In this document: positions 56 to 8,519 of the stretch, piece by piece
How positions within the stretch are numbered: position 1 is the first letter of the stretch
How the letters are laid out: each line of letters starts with the position of its first letter
Origin: Alcaligenaceae bacterium 429
GTDB taxonomy: Bacteria > Pseudomonadota > Gammaproteobacteria > Burkholderiales > Burkholderiaceae_B
Reading direction: 5' to 3'
Assembly: GCA_004791645.1 (NCBI GenBank)
Contig: SRSN01000004.1
Span: forward strand, 1 to 42,381
DNA length: 42,381 bases
Notes under the pieces: generated by a model
Databases searched by the model: none
Told to the model about the DNA's origin: nothing
What the model saw: only the letters and a program-made list of their open reading frames with translations
Program-made: the position numbers and the translations under genes

Positions 56-865
56 ATGAGTACAACTTTGCCGGCACAACAAAACTACACAGTTCCTGGA
101 CTGGAACGCGGCCTGCGTTTGTTATTTGAATTCAACCGTCATGAGCAAACCCTGACGGCTCCAGAGCTCGCAAAAAGACTGGACCTTCCTCGCACCACCA
201 CCTTCAGGCTGTTAGCCACATTGGAAAGCATGGGGTTTGTGCAACGCGTAGAAGGCGGCCATGCCTACAAATTGGGCATGGCGATTTTGCGTTTGGGTTT
301 TGAGTATTTGGCGTCGCTAGAACTCACCGAACTGGGTACACCCATTCTGGAACGCGTACGCGACGAAACAGGCTTATCGTGCAACTTGGCCATCCAAGAT
401 GAGCACAGCGTAGTGGTGATTAGCAAAGTTGCTGCCCCCACGCCTTTTGTTAGCACCGTACACGTGGGCACGCGCCTGCCCTTACACGCCACGCTACTGG
501 GGCGCGTACTCTTAAGTGACATGAAACCGGCAGATTTGTTGGCACTGTATCCCGACGATACGCTACCCAAATTCTCGGAACGCACGCCCTCTAACACCGC
601 CATGCTCTACGAGCTGATACGCCAAGACGCCGAGCGTGGTTATGGTTACGACGAAGGCTATTTTGAGCCTGAAGTGGGCAGCGCCGCGGTAGCCGTACGC
701 AACAAGCACGGCCACATTGTCGCCGTGTTGGGGGTGACGATTCCGGTCAGCTATTTACGCTCTGGCAAACTGGACACACCGCAGTTGGTAGACACGGTAC
801 GTAGCGCTGCGACCGAACTGTCGCAGTTGTTGGGCTATAACAGCAACGCACCGTCTGCGATGTAA
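56..865 (+). CDS. IclR-family transcriptional regulator
   Basis: This is a predicted DNA-binding regulator of 269 residues, the usual IclR length. Residues about 14-75 form the N-terminal winged helix-turn-helix (GLERGLRLLFEF, then LTAPELAKRLDLPRTTTFRLL). Residues about 80-260 form the GAF-like effector-binding domain, with the family-typical stretch LPLHATLLGRVLL near 144-156. IclR proteins usually control aromatic or organic-acid catabolism by binding a small ligand. No target operon is visible because the window begins just upstream, so the ligand cannot be named. The ATG at 56 has GAAGAG a few bases upstream as a modest ribosome binding site. The gene ends about 70 bp before a bidirectional terminator shared with the convergent envelope operon. 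The family call is firm and the specific role is unknown. Confidence 0.9.
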   Translation: MSTTLPAQQNYTVPGLERGLRLLFEFNRHEQTLTAPELAKRLDLPRTTTFRLLATLESMGFVQRVEGGHAYKLGMAILRLGFEYLASLELTELGTPILERVRDETGLSCNLAIQDEHSVVVISKVAAPTPFVSTVHVGTRLPLHATLLGRVLLSDMKPADLLALYPDDTLPKFSERTPSNTAMLYELIRQDAERGYGYDEGYFEPEVGSAAVAVRNKHGHIVAVLGVTIPVSYLRSGKLDTPQLVDTVRSAATELSQLLGYNSNAPSAM

Positions 866-935: not shown

Positions 936-963
936 AAAAAGGGGATCCTATGATCCCCTTTTT
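936..963. terminator. Bidirectional rho-independent terminator
   Basis: AAAAAGGGGATC and GATCCCCTTTTT form a perfect 12-bp inverted repeat around the 4-nt loop CTAT. It has an A-tract on one side and a T-tract on the other, so it can work in both directions. It lies between the convergent IclR gene and the last gene of the envelope operon. Confidence 0.9.
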
Positions 964-978
964 ATTGCTGCCTATGCC

Positions 979-1944
979 TTATGACCTGATTTCTGCATTT
1001 AATGCAGCGGTCACTGAAGGGTTAGGACGGCCCATAAACGCACTAGCTATACGCTCAATGGACACCGGTGTTTTAGGGTCCATCGTGATACGCAAGGTGC
1101 TTTTATCGCCTGTGACAAAACGCACTACCGCTTTACATGCCGCTTCGGGATCTTGTGTCATCAACGCAAAACCCTCACTGCGACACTCAACCATCATCTC
1201 TTCAGCCTCTTGTTCAAAGGCTTTTTCACGCTGCGATTTTGCACTGCCCTCGCCTACCTGTACAGGCAAGTTATAGCGTTTGTGCAAAGCAATGCCACGT
1301 TCCATCATGCCTCTGTCTTTGACCTTGATGTCCAGCTCTTTAATGCTGATACGTGACAGCATTTGCAACGGCCCCATAATGCCAAAACCCATCATGGCAT
1401 CTGCGGGTAACTGCCCATTCGCTAAGCTTTGCAGTGCGCCAATTTCCGTCATGCTCACCTTGAAATCCAGATCAGCCATGTCTTTTTGCTCTACCAACAG
1501 CGCGATGTCTGCCTGGTTATCATCAAAACGTACATCGGCTTTCAGCACCACATCCATAGGCGGCAGCTCGGCCCGACCAGAGGCCAAACCCAAGCTGTTA
1601 CCCAGCATGGAGTGCGACTTACCATCAGGCAGTACCAAGCCTTTGACCGACAAGGCAATACGCTGACGTTTAGCGTCTTCAATCACATCACTGATTTGCA
1701 CTTCTTTGGCTTGTACTTGATCGCGTGGCGACATAGTGACCGTCACATCTTTCAATGTCACTGTACCAAACGGCGAAGCACTGAGATCTGCCCAATGCAC
1801 TTGATCTTGCATGCCCATCGCTGTCAGTTTTTTACGTAAAGACTCTTCTGCATTACTGCTGGCATAGCTAGACGCACCCCACCACACCACTGCTACCCCT
1901 GCAACGGCGGCAGGGATAATCCACTTCATTTTTTGCTTATCCAT
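979..1944 (-). CDS. Membrane-anchored periplasmic protein of unknown function
   Basis: About 321 residues. The N-terminus carries one hydrophobic anchor (WIIPAAVAGVAVVWWGASSY). The rest is predicted periplasmic and made of short beta-type segments (GTVTLKDVTVTM, RIALSVKGLVLPDG, DVVLKADVRFDDNQADIALL), reminiscent of AsmA or YdgA/DUF945-type proteins, though that resemblance is weak. A Lys/Glu-rich helix near residues 235-255 is followed by two cysteines (CRSEGF and EAACKAVV). The ATG at 1944 was chosen because AAGGG sits 6 nt upstream; the ATG at 1950 abuts that site and would leave no spacing. It starts 9 nt after the stop of the large upstream gene and is the last gene of a three-gene operon. 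I do not recognise the function. Confidence 0.75.
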   Translation of the reverse strand: MDKQKMKWIIPAAVAGVAVVWWGASSYASSNAEESLRKKLTAMGMQDQVHWADLSASPFGTVTLKDVTVTMSPRDQVQAKEVQISDVIEDAKRQRIALSVKGLVLPDGKSHSMLGNSLGLASGRAELPPMDVVLKADVRFDDNQADIALLVEQKDMADLDFKVSMTEIGALQSLANGQLPADAMMGFGIMGPLQMLSRISIKELDIKVKDRGMMERGIALHKRYNLPVQVGEGSAKSQREKAFEQEAEEMMVECRSEGFALMTQDPEAACKAVVRFVTGDKSTLRITMDPKTPVSIERIASAFMGRPNPSVTAALNAEIRS

Positions 1945-1953
1945 TTTCATCCC

Positions 1954-4128
1954 TTACCAAAAAAGGCCGCCACCTTCGGGCGCGCTATCTATCACGGCTT
2001 GTGCTGCTTCCGGCGTCCAGTCTGGATCACCCAACTGCATACGCATCACCGCTAATGGTTCTAACAACTCGGCACAACCCTCTTTCTCACACTGTTGAGC
2101 CGCCGTAGCACCCAGCTGCACCATTGTCATCGGTAAGTCTTCATCATCCAAAATACTGGAATCCAACGAACGTGTACCCTTAACCCAGTACCAGCCTTTC
2201 TTCAAATCAGACTGCCCAACTAGGCGCATGGGGTACGGCCAATCTACGGTCGCATCATCTTTCTTAGAGCCATCTACACGCACAATGCGCGCGAAATCAT
2301 CCGCTTGCCCTGCTACCAAACGTGCATAGGCATTTGCACCTGACGCTGCTCGGTACTGTATGTCTTCTTCCAGCATAGGCAGCAATGCGTCCTTACCGCC
2401 AGCCTCTACACGTTCTTGCAGGCGCTGGTAATTGCTCAGGTTATTGCGCTCTACACGAGCTTGCTGACGCAGCTGATTCTGACGCTCACGCTCTAAACGC
2501 TCTTCCTCGTAACGCTTCTGCTCAGCAGCGCGCGCCTCACGTTGGAACAGGTAGTTTTGCGCATGCTGCAGGTTGTACTGCCAATCGCCTTGAGGTTGAC
2601 CAGTACGGTAGTTATAGCGACGCGATGCACTCACGCTGTACAACAGCTCTGATGCGTTGTTATTCCAAATACCTTGCGGCATATCGCTAAACACCAAACG
2701 TACATCTGTCGCATTAGGCATAATCAACGCCAAACGATCTAACGCTTTGTCTACTTCTTGGCGAATTTGAGCGGCCTGACGGAAGGACTCCGTTTTGGGC
2801 GTTAACACCGCCACTTCTGGCCCAACCTGCCATGCACCAATACCGCCGCGGAACTGACCTAACGTCGCTTTCAACAAGTAATGACTACCGTTGTCTGCAT
2901 CGCTAGCAAAACCAAACCAACCCGCGTTGTTACCGTTGAATGCCACTAAATCTGCTGGCTTCAGCCCTTGTACTGGCTTATTGAAAATCAAACCGTTGCT
3001 AAACCACAGGTCGCCCGTACGCATAATCTGTGCGCCGTCGGAACGCTCCAGCGTTAGCCTGCCTTTGCCTTGTGCATAGCCCTCGGCATTGCAGCTCACA
3101 CCTTCAGTCACCAGATTCAAATACGCCGCATCAGCACCCAAATCAAACTGGGACACTACCTTGCAACCATTCTGGTCTTTCAAAGTACTCAAGAAAGCAG
3201 ACAGCTCAGCACGTTGCGTAGCATTAGGTGCTGCCCAATCGCCCACAGCAAACTCAGCTAACCCCACTGTTGGGGTGACTACCGCTTCTGTTGCTACGGT
3301 GGTGTCTGCCGTTGTCTCAGGCTCTGTTGTTTCAACCGTAGCCGCTGTAGCGGGTACCTCGGGCTTGGCTTCTGTAGCCTTAGCGGGTGTGGCGGCGACT
3401 TTGTCTTTATTGATTTCTACAGGCTCAGACTCAACAATCGCGGGCCTAACCTCGGGTTGAATCTCAGGTGCAGCTACGGGTGCTGTCGCCTCTGGTGTAG
3501 GCTCTGTCGCTCTAGCCGCTGTTGGCGCAGCCTGTGCAGGCTCAGGTGTAGATTCAGCAGCTGTGGATCCCGTTTTAGGCTTAGCCTCATCTGAGGCGGC
3601 TTTTGGCTCTGCCGCTGTAGGAGCAGGAGGCGCATCCACCGACGCTGTGTTAGCCGGTGCCGGTGCAACGTTTTCTACCACTTCTGTAGGTGTAGCCGTA
3701 GTCGAAGCGGGAGCTTCCGCGACCTCAGGTGCAGCTGCCTGCACCGCTTGTGCAACAGACGCTTCTGGCGTTTGCACCAACAACGCCCAACCCGTCGCAC
3801 CTTGGCTAATCCCATCTGCCACTTGTGTGCCTTGGCTATTGACTGCACGCCACGTCGCGCTTTGTGCTTGCGGACATTGCTGGGCAAACAGAGCCCCTAG
3901 CTTAGGCAACAAGCGCCCCAAGGCAACAGTATCACCCGATGCACCGTACACAGCCCGCAATGCCAGTTCTGGTTTGCACCAGTTATCGGCCGACGCATTC
4001 TCTACAAAGATCTCAATGTCTTCAGCTTTAGAGTACGCCAAACGGAAATCTTCGGCTGCTGCACTAGACGCATACAGCCCCGCCCCCACTGCCACGATAG
4101 CAGCGCTCATCAATCGTTGTTTGAACAT
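1954..4128 (-). CDS. Large exported protein with Ala/Pro/Thr/Glu-rich linker, unknown function
   Basis: About 724 residues. The N-terminus (MFKQRLMSAAIVAVGAGLYA, then SSAAA) is a clear signal peptide. A small N-terminal domain follows to about residue 125, with Cys in DNWCKPEL and AQQCPQA. A long low-complexity linker rich in Ala, Pro, Thr, Glu and Val spans about 130-295. A central folded domain (about 300-450) contains NGCKVV and GVSCNAEGYAQGKG. A charged coiled-coil-like helix (EKQ/R-rich, about 540-600) leads to a C-terminal part with QQCEKEGCAELLE. The ATG at 4128 has AGGA 5 nt upstream; the ATG at 4146 would overlap the upstream gene and spoil the signal peptide. The gap to the preceding stop is 2 nt, suggesting translational coupling. 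The protein is presumably periplasmic and no known family was recognised. Confidence 0.8.
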   Translation of the reverse strand: MFKQRLMSAAIVAVGAGLYASSAAAEDFRLAYSKAEDIEIFVENASADNWCKPELALRAVYGASGDTVALGRLLPKLGALFAQQCPQAQSATWRAVNSQGTQVADGISQGATGWALLVQTPEASVAQAVQAAAPEVAEAPASTTATPTEVVENVAPAPANTASVDAPPAPTAAEPKAASDEAKPKTGSTAAESTPEPAQAAPTAARATEPTPEATAPVAAPEIQPEVRPAIVESEPVEINKDKVAATPAKATEAKPEVPATAATVETTEPETTADTTVATEAVVTPTVGLAEFAVGDWAAPNATQRAELSAFLSTLKDQNGCKVVSQFDLGADAAYLNLVTEGVSCNAEGYAQGKGRLTLERSDGAQIMRTGDLWFSNGLIFNKPVQGLKPADLVAFNGNNAGWFGFASDADNGSHYLLKATLGQFRGGIGAWQVGPEVAVLTPKTESFRQAAQIRQEVDKALDRLALIMPNATDVRLVFSDMPQGIWNNNASELLYSVSASRRYNYRTGQPQGDWQYNLQHAQNYLFQREARAAEQKRYEEERLERERQNQLRQQARVERNNLSNYQRLQERVEAGGKDALLPMLEEDIQYRAASGANAYARLVAGQADDFARIVRVDGSKKDDATVDWPYPMRLVGQSDLKKGWYWVKGTRSLDSSILDDEDLPMTMVQLGATAAQQCEKEGCAELLEPLAVMRMQLGDPDWTPEAAQAVIDSAPEGGGLFW

Positions 4129-4130
4129 GA

Positions 4131-4973
4131 TTATCCTATCTGCCACGCGCCATCAACGGACTGGCATGCATCTACGGTTTTGCTTTCAGTGCCCTTCTCT
4201 GTTTTCAGTTCGTAGTTCATGGTGCGGCATGTGGTTTGTACCGCAACTGTTTCCGTAACAGGGCTAGCTGGCTCAAACGTATCCAAATCAAAACCCTGCT
4301 GACCGGCTTGTGCCACTGTGATGCTATCCAGATCAGTAGCTTGATCAGCCTTGGCTACCGTTACGGGTGCTGTCAGCGGTGCATGTACATAGCCCACCAA
4401 CACACCTTTACGACCTACTGCAATCCAGTTGTTCGGCGTTTTACCCAACGCCGTAAAGGTTTGGCCAGCTTGGAAACCACCCACTTTGTCTGCATTGGTA
4501 TCTGGCGCTGCGCGCAAGTTCACCGAGCGCAAAGCGTGGTAAGACTGGTTCAACACCGTCAGGTTCTCGGCTTTAGCAATCACTGGTGCGCGTTTCACCT
4601 GTGCTTCTTGCGTAACGGTTGTACTCGCTACAGGACGAATCACCGCCGATGCACCGCTGTGATCGGATTCCCAATTTACGGCTCTACCCGTTTCTAACGA
4701 TTGCTGCGTGCTGGCAGCTAAGGCCTCGCGATCGCGCTCATCTAAATTATCGCCAATCCAGTTACCAAGTGCGCCGCCAGCCAACGCACCCAAAATAATA
4801 GCGATGGTGCGCCCGCTACCACCGCCTATCTGACTGCCCAACAATGCACCGCCCACCGTACCAATCACTGTGCCCCATGTTTGCTTGCTACCCCACTCGC
4901 CCATGTTGGCACAACCGGATACGCCCAACGCACCAATTAGCGTTGCGACGACCAGCTTTTTGGATAAAGCCAT
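4131..4973 (-). CDS. SH3-domain lipoprotein, 17-kDa surface antigen/glycine-zipper type
   Basis: 280 residues. A lipoprotein signal peptide ends in the lipobox GVSGC, so Cys21 would be lipidated. Residues about 33-75 form a glycine-zipper segment (GTVIGTVGGALLGSQIGGG, then ALAGGALGNWIGDNLDERD) typical of Rickettsia 17-kDa-antigen/OmpA-like lipoproteins. An SH3b-like domain spans about 140-205 (LRSVNLRAAPDTNADKVGGF, NNWIAVGRKGVLVGYVHA). The tail (CRTMNYELKTEKG, ACQSVDGAWQIG) resembles the C-terminal strand pair of the 17-kDa family, so the SH3 domain looks inserted between the two halves. GGAAGAG precedes the ATG. It is the first gene of the three-gene envelope operon and probably sits in the outer membrane facing peptidoglycan. 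The exact function is unknown. Confidence 0.85.
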   Translation of the reverse strand: MALSKKLVVATLIGALGVSGCANMGEWGSKQTWGTVIGTVGGALLGSQIGGGSGRTIAIILGALAGGALGNWIGDNLDERDREALAASTQQSLETGRAVNWESDHSGASAVIRPVASTTVTQEAQVKRAPVIAKAENLTVLNQSYHALRSVNLRAAPDTNADKVGGFQAGQTFTALGKTPNNWIAVGRKGVLVGYVHAPLTAPVTVAKADQATDLDSITVAQAGQQGFDLDTFEPASPVTETVAVQTTCRTMNYELKTEKGTESKTVDACQSVDGAWQIG

Positions 4974-5047: not shown

Positions 5048-5746
5048 TCATTTCCCAATGAACCTAAGCCCCACACCAGGTTCCGTCATAATGTAGCGAG
5101 GATTAGCGGCATCATCGCCCAATTTGTGCCTGAGCTTTCCCACTAAGATGCGCAAATAGTGGGCATCTTCTTCATGGCTAGGCCCCCAAAGTTCTTTGAG
5201 AATTTGCGGTTGAGCAACCAACCTACCCGCCTGCTCAACCAATAACACCAGCAACGCAAATTCTTTACGTGTGAGTGGAACGCTATCCCCCTGAATGCGC
5301 ACATCTCGCTGGCTCACATCAATATGTAAGTTGCCATCGTCATAAATCGGCCCTGTAGGACTGCGTATCTCTGCCACTCGCAGAAATGCACGTATACGTG
5401 CCATGAGTTCTTCAATACCAAAGGGCTTAGTCACATAATCATTGGCACCGGCATCCAATAGCGCGACCTTTTCTGTTTCATCAGAACGGACGGTCAAAAT
5501 AATTACCGGAACACGTGACCATTGCCGTAACTCTCGCAGCACCTCTTGCCCATCTTTATCAGGAAGCCCTAAATCTAGCACTACGATGTCGGCACCCTTA
5601 CCGGCTAATAGACTTAAGCCTTCATGACCATTTTCAGCCAGTAGCGTTGCATAGCCCTGTGAGCGCAAGCTGATATCAATGAGTTTGCGTATATGCGGTT
5701 CGTCATCAATAATCAGCACGCGTGCAGCAGGTGCAGAATCCAACAT
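5048..5746 (-). CDS. kdpE: KdpE, response regulator of K+ transport operon
   Basis: This is an OmpR-class response regulator that activates kdp transcription when phosphorylated by KdpD. The receiver domain (about residues 8-120) shows the acidic pair in VLIIDDE, the phospho-acceptor Asp58 in VVLDLGLP, the Thr in ILTVRSD and the Lys in YVTKPFG. The winged-helix DNA-binding domain (about 135-230) contains PLTRKEFALLVLL and LRILVGKLRHKLGDD. Three ATGs are possible: 5767, 5755 and 5746. I chose 5746 because GAGG lies 9 nt upstream and the resulting 232 residues match the usual size; it also begins immediately after the kdpD stop, implying coupled translation. No terminator hairpin was seen in the 74 bp between this gene and the lipoprotein gene, so read-through into the envelope operon is possible. 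Confidence 0.93.
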   Translation of the reverse strand: MLDSAPAARVLIIDDEPHIRKLIDISLRSQGYATLLAENGHEGLSLLAGKGADIVVLDLGLPDKDGQEVLRELRQWSRVPVIILTVRSDETEKVALLDAGANDYVTKPFGIEELMARIRAFLRVAEIRSPTGPIYDDGNLHIDVSQRDVRIQGDSVPLTRKEFALLVLLVEQAGRLVAQPQILKELWGPSHEEDAHYLRILVGKLRHKLGDDAANPRYIMTEPGVGLRFIGK

Positions 5747-5747
5747 A

Positions 5748-8462
5748 TTAGTCATCCTCAAATTCATTGCTGGGTGGTCGCTCCCCGACGGGCAGACTTA
5801 AACGTATGCATGTGCCTCGCTCATTTGGGCCTAACAACGCTTCCACTTTACCCATGTGTGCGCCCACTATGCCCTGCACAATGGTTAGCCCAAGCCCTGT
5901 ACCGTGTTGACCCCGGTCACCGCGCTCTACGCTATAAAACATATCAAAAATGCGACTACGTTCGTCATCTGGAATACCAGGACCTTGATCCGACACATCA
6001 ATCTGTACGGTCTTGTCATCTACCAAGGCAACACTCACAGTAATGGCCACACCTTCTGGTGAGAACTTTGCGGCATTCTCCATCACATTAAAGATGGCCT
6101 GCTCAATTAATGCAGGGTGTACGTGAATGAAGCCCACACTGGCATCAATGTTCGTATTCACGAGTACCTTGGGTTCGTAACGCTGCAGCCTATGCACCGC
6201 AGAACCCACCAACTCATCAACACCTATCCAATCTCGAGTTAGCGACAAACCATGTTGCCCCAATCGCGTCATATCCAACAAATTCTGAATATAACGATCT
6301 AAGCGCTCACCTTCTACACTAATGGTTTCCAACAAACTGCTACGGTCTTCTGCACTCATGTCTTTGCCATAGCGGGTCAAGCTATCCGCTGCACCAATCA
6401 TAGAAGATAGCGGTGAGCGTAGATCATGAGAAACGCTGGACAGTAAGGCTGAACGCAAACGCTCCGTTTCGCCGGTGACTTTCGCCATCTCTAACTCTGA
6501 CACCAACCGCGTACGAAGTGCTGCCTGCGCAATGTCGTCCGCCATACTTTCAGCTAGGCGTCGCTGTTCAAACGATAGGCGTTCCATCTCGGCAGGAAAC
6601 TTCAGCGCGATCACGCCCAAACTACGTTCACTGGAACGTATAGGCAGAAACCACCATGCGGATTGCGTCAGGGTATCGGTGTACCGTCCACTGGCTTGGC
6701 CATGTTGTTGCGTCCAGTCTGCCGCCATCATGTCTTTCTCTGATAACTGCGCCACTGGCGTTTTAGGGCCATACTCTGTCTGAATACGCATCCACGCTTG
6801 CACATGTAGTGAGGTCTGCAACACAGATGTGCCTGCCGCAATTACCTGCCCAAGATCAGCCGCTTTAGCGAGCTTTCGCCCTAAGCTTTGCATTGCCGTT
6901 GCATGTGCATTCGCTGCGCGCAGCGCCATAACCTGCATACGTAATCTAGAGGCCAACCTCCCTGCGATCAACGCCGCGGCTAAAAACAGCAATACCGATA
7001 CCAGCCCACGATGCGCACTGATCAACAGGGTGTAACGCGGCTCAATAAAGAAAAAGTTATACGCCAGAAAACACAATACGGCAGTAATCACCGATGAGGT
7101 CATACGCGCACGCGACGCAACCAGCATCACCGCCACCAAAAAGACCATGGATAAGTCTTGCAAGCCCAATACCCGTTCTGCCACAGCAGCAGTGGCAATC
7201 GCCCCCACGCTGGCTAACAGAATTAGCCCTAACTCTTGCTTGGGAAACTCCGCTTGGCTCAAATCTGACCACTGCGATTCCCGTTGACGTACCAATGGCG
7301 TACTCACGATGGTCAGCTCGTAATGCGCCCCACGCAGCAACAATTGCTGCGTTAACGTGCGATTAAACATACGTGCAATAGGCCGCTCGCGGGTACGCCC
7401 AATCACTATAGATTTCACACCACGTGTAGCAGCCATATCCAACAATGCCTGTGTCACATCGGTGTTGTGCAGTACCTCAGCTTCACCACCCAAACTACGC
7501 GCTAAGGCAAAGGCTTTATCGATTTCTAGTAACCGCTGCCGCTCTATGTGCATACGTTTACTAAACATAGACGCCAGACGCGCGTGAGTTGTAGACGCAT
7601 CAGCAGAACGACCGGTTTCCACTGTCACCACTGCCCACGACACCCCGCGACGCTCAGCAATTCGTGCTCCGGCCCTAACCAAATATTCCGATTGCCCACG
7701 GCCATCAATAGCGATCAACACTTGGCATTGGATAGAGACACCCTCTAAGCCGCGGGCTGCCCTTTTTTCACGCAGGTCAGCATCCACATACTCAGCAACG
7801 GTTTGCATCGCCAACTCGCGCAATGCTGTCAGGTTGGCTGGTGAGAAAAAGGCTTGTAATGCCTGTGCCGCTTGCTCAGGCAAATACACTTTGCCCTGAT
7901 TCAGCCGTTCAATCAGTTCTTGCGCAGGCAAGTCGATGAGCCGTATGTCACGCAGCCTATCAAATACGGCATCGGGCACGGTTTCACTCACACGTATACC
8001 GGTGATTTGATGCACCACATCATTCACACTTTCTAAGTGCTGAATATTCACCGTGGTGTATACATCAATGCCCGCATCCAGCAACTCCACCACATCCTGC
8101 CACCGTCTTTCGTGACGACTACCGGGTACGTTTCGATGGGCCAGTTCATCCACCAGAACAATGGCGGGCTTACGGCTGAGAATCCCGTCTAGGTCCATCT
8201 CTTCTAGCTGTCGCCCTTGGTATTCCACTGTCTTACGTGGCAATAAAGGCAGCCCTTCGATCATCGCTTGAGTCTCGCTACGCCCATGTGTCTCGACGAT
8301 GCCTATGGTCACATCCACACCTTGGCGATGCAGCTCGTGCGCACGCATTAACATGGCATAGGTTTTACCCACACCAGGCGCCGCCCCCAAAAAGACGGTT
8401 AAGCGCCCGGCATGCTGCCGTTGAAGCTCCCCTAGAATGGCATCGGCCTGTTCTGTTCCCAT
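5748..8462 (-). CDS. kdpD: KdpD, membrane sensor histidine kinase for K+ limitation
   Basis: About 904 residues, matching full-length KdpD. The cytoplasmic N-terminus has the KdpD domain with Walker A GAAPGVGKT and the conserved block ELAHRNVPGSRHERRWQDV. A universal-stress-like domain follows (about 240-365), then a DUF4118 membrane region with four hydrophobic segments (about 400-500) and a GAF-like segment. The HisKA domain has its phospho-acceptor His679 in SVSHDLRSPL. The ATPase domain shows NVMENAAKFSP, DQGPGIPDDE and GTGLGLTIVQ. The ATG at 8462 is preferred: an upstream GTG at 8480 lacks a ribosome binding site, while GAGG lies 12 nt before the ATG. KdpD phosphorylates KdpE under low K+ or ionic stress. 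The gene follows kdpC after 57 bp. Confidence 0.96.
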   Translation of the reverse strand: MGTEQADAILGELQRQHAGRLTVFLGAAPGVGKTYAMLMRAHELHRQGVDVTIGIVETHGRSETQAMIEGLPLLPRKTVEYQGRQLEEMDLDGILSRKPAIVLVDELAHRNVPGSRHERRWQDVVELLDAGIDVYTTVNIQHLESVNDVVHQITGIRVSETVPDAVFDRLRDIRLIDLPAQELIERLNQGKVYLPEQAAQALQAFFSPANLTALRELAMQTVAEYVDADLREKRAARGLEGVSIQCQVLIAIDGRGQSEYLVRAGARIAERRGVSWAVVTVETGRSADASTTHARLASMFSKRMHIERQRLLEIDKAFALARSLGGEAEVLHNTDVTQALLDMAATRGVKSIVIGRTRERPIARMFNRTLTQQLLLRGAHYELTIVSTPLVRQRESQWSDLSQAEFPKQELGLILLASVGAIATAAVAERVLGLQDLSMVFLVAVMLVASRARMTSSVITAVLCFLAYNFFFIEPRYTLLISAHRGLVSVLLFLAAALIAGRLASRLRMQVMALRAANAHATAMQSLGRKLAKAADLGQVIAAGTSVLQTSLHVQAWMRIQTEYGPKTPVAQLSEKDMMAADWTQQHGQASGRYTDTLTQSAWWFLPIRSSERSLGVIALKFPAEMERLSFEQRRLAESMADDIAQAALRTRLVSELEMAKVTGETERLRSALLSSVSHDLRSPLSSMIGAADSLTRYGKDMSAEDRSSLLETISVEGERLDRYIQNLLDMTRLGQHGLSLTRDWIGVDELVGSAVHRLQRYEPKVLVNTNIDASVGFIHVHPALIEQAIFNVMENAAKFSPEGVAITVSVALVDDKTVQIDVSDQGPGIPDDERSRIFDMFYSVERGDRGQHGTGLGLTIVQGIVGAHMGKVEALLGPNERGTCIRLSLPVGERPPSNEFEDD

Positions 8463-8519
8463 AACAAGGCTAGTCCTCACAATACGACGTTTGAAATACG
8501 GGCTTTTAGGTTGTCAGCA

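Follow-up and report, generated by a model that had tools for sequence, protein, structure and literature searches.

Do three closely spaced genes for envelope proteins of three kinds form a unit of their own, and to which known system would such a unit be related? The question is raised by a locus in the window studied here, i.e. the whole stretch of 42,381 nucleotides, which is part of a genome of 3,539,013 bases (89% complete) that shares its genus with genome G008. The locus is a real, conserved operon that carries no name but has kin, namely envelope inputs of the type of TagV and RtkS, accessory proteins in some type VI secretion systems (T6SS); the inputs occur here partly without a T6SS.

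Layout of the operon

The genes, designated ORF1, ORF2 and ORF3, are co-directional and all lie on the minus strand. Their features are listed below with amino acid (aa) positions in brackets.

4131-4973, minus strand: ORF1, 280 aa, a TagV-like lipoprotein of predicted outer-membrane type
4734-4877, minus strand: ORF1 glycine zipper (aa 33-80), Pfam PF05433/PF13488, in 10/10 ORF1 proteins
4380-4526, minus strand: ORF1 SH3b domain (aa 150-198), Pfam SH3_3 6e-11, the part that matches TagV
4137-4265, minus strand: ORF1 C-terminal two-cysteine domain (aa 237-279, C249/C270), 17kDa_Anti_2 0.0063, below cut-off
1954-4128, minus strand: ORF2, 724 aa from the ATG at 4128, a putative exported RtkS-like adaptor
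3775-4053, minus strand: ORF2 domain A (aa 26-118), related to the RtkS N-terminal domain
3262-3774, minus strand: ORF2 linker rich in A/P/T/E (about aa 119-289), from composition and a pLDDT <50 over most of it
2569-3261, minus strand: ORF2 domain B (aa 290-520), modelled with the fold of the RtkS crystal structures
2365-2553, minus strand: ORF2 long helix/coiled coil (aa 526-588), from the model
1984-2337, minus strand: ORF2 domain C (aa 598-715), from the model; goes with ORF3
979-1950, minus strand: ORF3, 323 aa (321 from the ATG at 1944), a putative inner-membrane-anchored periplasmic protein, half-barrel-like
1867-1920, minus strand: ORF3 membrane anchor (aa 11-28), from sequence; helix 11-25 in the model, pLDDT <50 there
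936-963, minus strand: terminator-like hairpin 3' of ORF3, towards the convergent IclR-type gene

ORF1 and ORF2 are separated by 2 bp, as had been reported. The 9 bp given previously for the distance between ORF2 and ORF3 applies to the second ATG of ORF3 (1944), for which an AAGGG is better spaced by eye; from the first ATG (1950) it is 3 bp. A GTG at 4146 lies in the same frame as ORF2. The number of terminator-like sites around 936-963 was not above that in shuffled sequences (2 found against 4.3 expected). Comparison with Paenalcaligenes suwonensis yielded dN/dS ratios of 0.022 for ORF1, 0.096 for ORF2 and 0.061 for ORF3; all three genes are under purifying selection and the reading frames are real. 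The operon has a G+C content of 0.530, near the value of 0.515 for the whole window.

The operon is flanked by an IclR-type gene (56-865, plus strand) and by kdpE/kdpD (5048-8480, minus strand). Between 5048 and 12916, upstream of ORF1 and in the same direction, the window holds kdpE, kdpD and then, by eye, kdpC-, kdpB- and kdpA-like genes. This run ends 74 bp from ORF1, and in P. suwonensis the kdp genes do not adjoin the operon.

Relationship of ORF1 and ORF2 to TagV and RtkS

The lipobox of ORF1, VSG-C21, has Ala at +2 and is of the outer-membrane type. In Pfam both SH3_3 and Rick_17kDa_Anti (1.6e-8) were matched above cut-off. The accessible part of PMC7614798 describes TagV as an outer-membrane SH3b lipoprotein that is proposed to bind peptidoglycan and whose gene lies directly upstream of tssJ. 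The NCBIfam TagV model NF041850 matched 10/10 ORF1 proteins (best 3e-8), at a score for ORF1 of 27.6 bits that does not reach the equivalog cut-off of 300. Like TagV, ORF1 has a lipobox without Asp at +2, an SH3b domain and, by eye, a small C-terminal stretch with two cysteines (each kept in 15/18) and a closing TW/AW motif. It differs from TagV in its length (280 aa against about 165), in having a glycine zipper, which neither of the two TagV proteins examined showed, and in the position of its gene, which is not upstream of tssJ.

In ORF2 a signal peptide was recognised by eye, and no match was found in Pfam or NCBIfam. The structure model (pLDDT 71.5, 13 sequences) consists of domain A, a low-confidence linker (108-296 by composition, about 119-286 by pLDDT <50), domain B, a long helix that spans 526-577 and domain C. 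Two cysteines per domain are kept in 17-18 of the 18 proteins. When the model was compared with crystal structures of RtkS from the Serratia marcescens T6SS (PDB 9k0l, 9k1p and 9k1u), domain B gave a VIA Z of 12.7 over 174 aligned residues (rmsd 4.3 A, 18% identity), as against a Z of 7.1 for the best unrelated entry. By sequence, the ORF2 profile matched RtkS chain 9k0l with an E-value of 3e-4, the next match being at 0.14.

Two T6SS clusters, in Escherichia albertii and Pantoea piersonii, were reached through the plasmid search described below. In both, an unannotated gene directly follows fha (tagH) and a PP2C gene, and an SH3/lipoprotein gene lies directly upstream of tssJ. According to the accessible part of PMC6082577, the RtkS gene of Serratia is positioned after fha (tagH) and a PP2C gene. 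Because their positions match those of Serratia RtkS and of the TagV gene before tssJ, we read the cluster genes as RtkS and TagV. With the two RtkS proteins the ORF2 HMM gave E-values of 1.5e-24 and 6.9e-15, and with the two TagV proteins the ORF1 HMM gave 1.5e-11 and 1.6e-8 (Z=1000). The HMM of domain A matched both RtkS proteins (8.9e-20 and 4.3e-13; Z=10000), domain B was weak by sequence in both (0.21 and 5.2; Z=10000), and the profile of domain C had no match in them (304 and 327 aa). Judged by these profiles, most of the sequence signal between ORF2 and RtkS is from domain A. TssJ and TagJ did not match the operon profiles.

Single-domain profiles were further run against 2590 distinct ORFs (at least 100 aa) from 216 loci and the window, a set that serves as a noise control and not as a census, because most of the loci had been chosen for holding the operon. 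Up to an E-value of 0.01 there were 32 matches for domain A, 31 for domain B, 38 for domain C and 29 for the SH3/C-terminal part, every one of them an operon gene, RtkS, TagV or an additional domain-C stretch in genome G618. The latter (L121:14138-14704; L089) lies about 5 kb from the operon of that genome.

As judged from profiles, the SH3 half of ORF1 is related to TagV, and sequence and fold model together indicate that the first domains of ORF2 are related to RtkS. The first-pass annotation had left two of the three proteins without a recognised family; this is wrong in view of these relationships and of the modelled fold of ORF3, which resembles that of JlpA (see below). With RtkS, ORF2 has in common that it is exported, that it contains domains A and B with paired cysteines in each (by eye), and that it co-occurs with a TagV-type lipoprotein. 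It differs by its longer linker, coiled coil and domain C, and its gene does not follow fha/pppA in a T6SS cluster, the neighbours being kdpE and the IclR-type gene.

Other candidates for ORF2 were rejected. VasI/TagO (PF11319) gave 0 matches in the own genome at E 1e-3 and in 0/14 ORF2 proteins in Pfam at 0.5. AspS pilotin-type entries for domain A (Z 5.2) and OB-fold-like entries for domain C (Z 5-7) were tied with unrelated ones, and entries of the lysozyme inhibitor PliI (E 0.24-0.29) were too weak. PpkA was dismissed as a relative, the ORF2 profile reaching it with E 3.5, in the linker, and the domain C and ORF3 profiles having no hit up to 10. A search of phages with ORF2 gave no match.

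Conservation of the trio and the relatives of ORF3

ORF2 was found in 20 of the 260 family genomes, and the next gene was ORF3 in all 20 (places compared by hand). ORF1 lay directly upstream of ORF2 in 12 of these carriers; in G544 the two pieces of ORF2 lie on separate contigs, and the first of them is adjoined by ORF1. ORF1 was absent beside the pair in the other eight (six genomes of genus g4, G497 and G020) and is reduced in three carriers, hence it is not indispensable. A divergent lipoprotein gene occupies its place in the g4 genomes and G497, i.e. in seven of the eight (e.g. L016:8687-9538). Among 369 genomes of the class, three including the own genome contained ORF2, each with ORF3 and ORF1 adjoining. 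A scan of named genomes, which overlaps these sets (five named loci are apparently common), yielded 12 loci. ORF3 followed ORF2 in 12/12, and ORF1 preceded it in nine of the 11 that could be assessed (P. suwonensis, Corticimicrobacter, three Denitromonas, Ca. P. intestinipullorum and three other MAGs) and was not upstream in two Achromobacter loci. Denitromonas belongs to the Rhodocyclales and Corticimicrobacter to the Alcaligenaceae, and the trio was also present in MAGs of Gammaproteobacteria. Together with the dN/dS ratios, this gene order, shared by Burkholderiales, Rhodocyclales and the MAGs of Gammaproteobacteria, speaks against chance and confirms the three-gene envelope operon that had been proposed. 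Because the flanking genes vary between carriers, the three genes are the unit. Occurrence of each gene alone in related genomes had been named as a sign against such a unit: ORF2 was never seen without ORF3 in the 260 family genomes, whereas relatives of ORF3 do occur alone.

Correlations of evolutionary distances were 0.81 for ORF1 with ORF2 domain A, and 0.80, 0.82 and 0.77 for ORF3 with domains A, B and C, respectively. These values agree with co-inheritance and identify no contacts; the pair of domain C and ORF3 is not singled out.

ORF3 has a single N-terminal hydrophobic stretch and no lipobox Cys. Its structure model (pLDDT 75.1, 13 sequences) matched best with JlpA, a surface lipoprotein of Campylobacter jejuni (PDB 3uau; Foldseek E 1.7e-7; Z 11.1 over 243 residues, 5.3 A, against 8.7 for the next entry). 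The likeness would concern the overall fold of the periplasmic part, which we take to be a half-barrel as in JlpA. ORF3 differs from JlpA, with which it shares 8% identity, in that its anchor is an N-terminal helix without a lipobox cysteine. With DUF945/YdgA (PF06097) it has an N-terminal inner-membrane anchor and a short stretch thereafter in common. In Pfam, PF06097 was not matched by ORF3 and weakly by 7/17 relatives (best 22.8 against 26.8 bits, residues 5-53), and profile comparison with hhalign gave 51% over 36 columns at the anchor. Membership was rejected, the similarity being confined to the membrane anchor, and so was GspN, for which the NCBIfam value of 0.015 was too weak.

Matches of ORF3 were obtained in 50 of the 260 family genomes, 20 of them with ORF2, 19 strong without ORF2 and 11 short and weak. 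Where ORF2 is absent, an acnB-like gene adjoins ORF3 in 10 of 16 stretches by eye (L135-L139, L142, L144-L146 and L149); it is also found in L020 and L021 of the same family. In genus g23 the ORF3 relatives are present in tandem copies (L021, L144 and L149). Another paralogue (L019, L140, L141 and L148) has a nuclease-like lipoprotein gene upstream and ends a T6SS-type gene run that comprises, by eye, tssB, tssC, tagJ and a tssF-like gene and is partial in L141 and L148. A link of ORF3 to the T6SS through this paralogue was set aside, because other paralogues in those genomes adjoin the acnB-like gene.

Relatives of ORF2 were also found on 121 plasmids, 119 of which are of Pseudomonas; among the matches listed, most cover domain A alone. 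A plasmid ORF2 as query retrieved 126 plasmids. In 11/11 plasmid stretches read, ORF2 has a gene for an SH3 lipoprotein on its upstream side and a further gene downstream. In the P. cerasi pair the following gene is ORF3 by profile. On the megaplasmids the ORF3 profile did not detect it, and in profile comparison the first 68 columns alone were alike (85% probability); domain B was detected in four of eight distinct megaplasmid copies. In the stretches read, the trio is annotated as 'SH3 domain-containing protein, hypothetical, hypothetical'. The operon-bearing plasmids include pTTS12 of P. putida S12. The accessible text of PMC9537497 places pTTS12 among the IncP-2 plasmids and ascribes tellurite resistance to it, and the term 'SH3' is absent from it. 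On the P. cerasi plasmids (L199 and L200, the latter with ORF2 split into two frames) the operon adjoins annotated AAA ATPase/endonuclease and helicase genes, which we take to be Gabija-like.

A possible trans-envelope module

We propose, with a probability of about 0.5, that the operon codes for an autonomous module spanning the envelope: an adaptor of the RtkS type would connect a lipoprotein of the TagV type with a half-barrel at the inner membrane. ORF1 would reside in the outer membrane and hold peptidoglycan through its SH3b domain, the glycine zipper being an addition to the TagV type. ORF2 would be a periplasmic adaptor, of which the first half (domain A, flexible linker and domain B) would face the outer membrane and peptidoglycan, while the second half (coiled coil and domain C) would dock on the half-barrel of ORF3, anchored in the inner membrane. 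A two-headed ORF2 is suggested because the A-B half and a TagV-type lipoprotein are common to the T6SS clusters, whereas the C half goes with ORF3, as seen in G020, where ORF2 is reduced to its C-terminal part adjoining ORF3. Such a placement of a lipoprotein, an exported and an anchored protein is consistent with the earlier suggestion that the three could join outer membrane and peptidoglycan to the inner membrane. ORF3 would stand in for PpkA, the inner-membrane client of RtkS in the T6SS, and the state of the outer membrane or cell wall would be coupled to it without T6SS or PpkA. Since ORF3 is almost without a cytoplasmic part, the output is likely to be periplasmic, either tethering or a hydrophobic ligand bound in the half-barrel, and would not be a classical cytoplasmic signal.

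Inputs of comparable build to the T6SS phosphorylation pathway are TagQRST, of which TagQ is a lipoprotein, and RtkS-PpkA. They share with the proposed module an outer-membrane-side component, a periplasmic activator and an inner-membrane client; RtkS is periplasmic, binds the periplasmic domain of PpkA and activates this kinase (PMC6082577, accessible part). The operon differs in that its inner-membrane client would be ORF3, which is no kinase, and no fha- or pppA-like gene was recognised beside it. Pkinase (Ser/Thr kinase) was not matched above cut-off in eight of 14 carriers tested. Some match at E 1e-3 or better was present in 13 of the 14, below cut-off in seven; in the own genome it is partial (25.4 bits against a cut-off of 31.7). 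Both tssK and an above-cut-off Pkinase were missing in 7/14, so that a PpkA route is unlikely in these carriers; the sub-cut-off matches make a divergent kinase partner possible.

Could the trio merely keep the outer membrane, the wall and the inner membrane a fixed distance apart and sense nothing? A lipoprotein with an SH3b domain of the peptidoglycan type, an inner-membrane anchor and the low-complexity linker found in 25 of the 26 ORF2 proteins scanned would suit such a purely structural tether. However, the length of this linker varies more than two-fold (80-206 residues), which is odd for a ruler, ORF1 is missing beside the pair in the eight family carriers named above, and the relative RtkS regulates a kinase (PMC6082577, accessible part), which makes this reading unlikely. 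Quite unlikely is the handling of a hydrophobic ligand, in which ORF3 would carry a lipid or acyl chain from the inner membrane to ORF1 with ORF2 as the bridge: the resemblance to JlpA and a weak LptA entry in Foldseek (E 0.11) speak for it, but ORF3 lacks the long repeated groove that presumably characterises AsmA/TamB, and no lipid genes were noticed among the neighbours of the operon in those stretches that were read.

Protection against envelope attack (phage, bacteriocin or tellurite-type stress), spread as plasmid cargo, was considered in view of the more than 100 plasmids of Pseudomonas that carry a relative of ORF2, the Ter genes near the operon in 7/11 stretches and the AAA ATPase/helicase genes beside it in P. 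cerasi. As the plasmids with Ter genes are themselves relatives, their association may reflect one event; moreover, the PADLOC models gave 0 matches at E 0.1 for all three proteins, and the chromosomal copies lie among other, varied genes, so that this explanation is improbable. It is very improbable that the trio is a disguised set of accessory proteins for a T6SS whose genes lie elsewhere. The homology to TagV and RtkS and the presence of tssK in 11 of 22 operon carriers would fit this, yet tssK, the sole T6SS gene searched, was not found in the other 11, including the own genome (89% complete) and P. suwonensis (99% complete), and the closest tssK-operon pair on one contig is about 90 kb apart (G474).

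The trio thus occurs where tssK was not found and on large plasmids, therefore regulators of the TagV and RtkS type may be parts of an envelope device with a wider role. A literature search that covered few subscription journals turned up no publication about relatives of TagV or RtkS beyond the T6SS. Which signal RtkS senses and which partner TagV binds are described as open in PMC6082577 and PMC7614798 (accessible parts); an operon with relatives of both, in genomes where tssK was not found, offers a simpler system for finding ligand and partner. The proposed module also provides a first reading for the trio annotated as SH3 and hypothetical proteins on Pseudomonas plasmids, pTTS12 included. 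More tentatively, TagV and RtkS themselves may not have been invented by the T6SS but recruited from an autonomous module for envelope sensing that is partly mobile, in which case the T6SS lineage would have swapped the half-barrel client for a kinase.

This module may sometimes comprise a fourth protein. By eye, a gene for a multi-pass protein lies upstream of the SH3 gene in seven of the 11 plasmid stretches, the same seven that have Ter genes near, and a relative of it (E 3e-13) is located two genes downstream of ORF3 in G544, which suggests that the multi-pass protein is a further partner. It is thus seen beside the operon in two contexts (L202:6846-8114 and L131:2779-3900), without a Pfam match. 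Relatives are present on plasmids of Salmonella, Acetobacter and Pseudoalteromonas, some of them annotated as PEGA-domain proteins.
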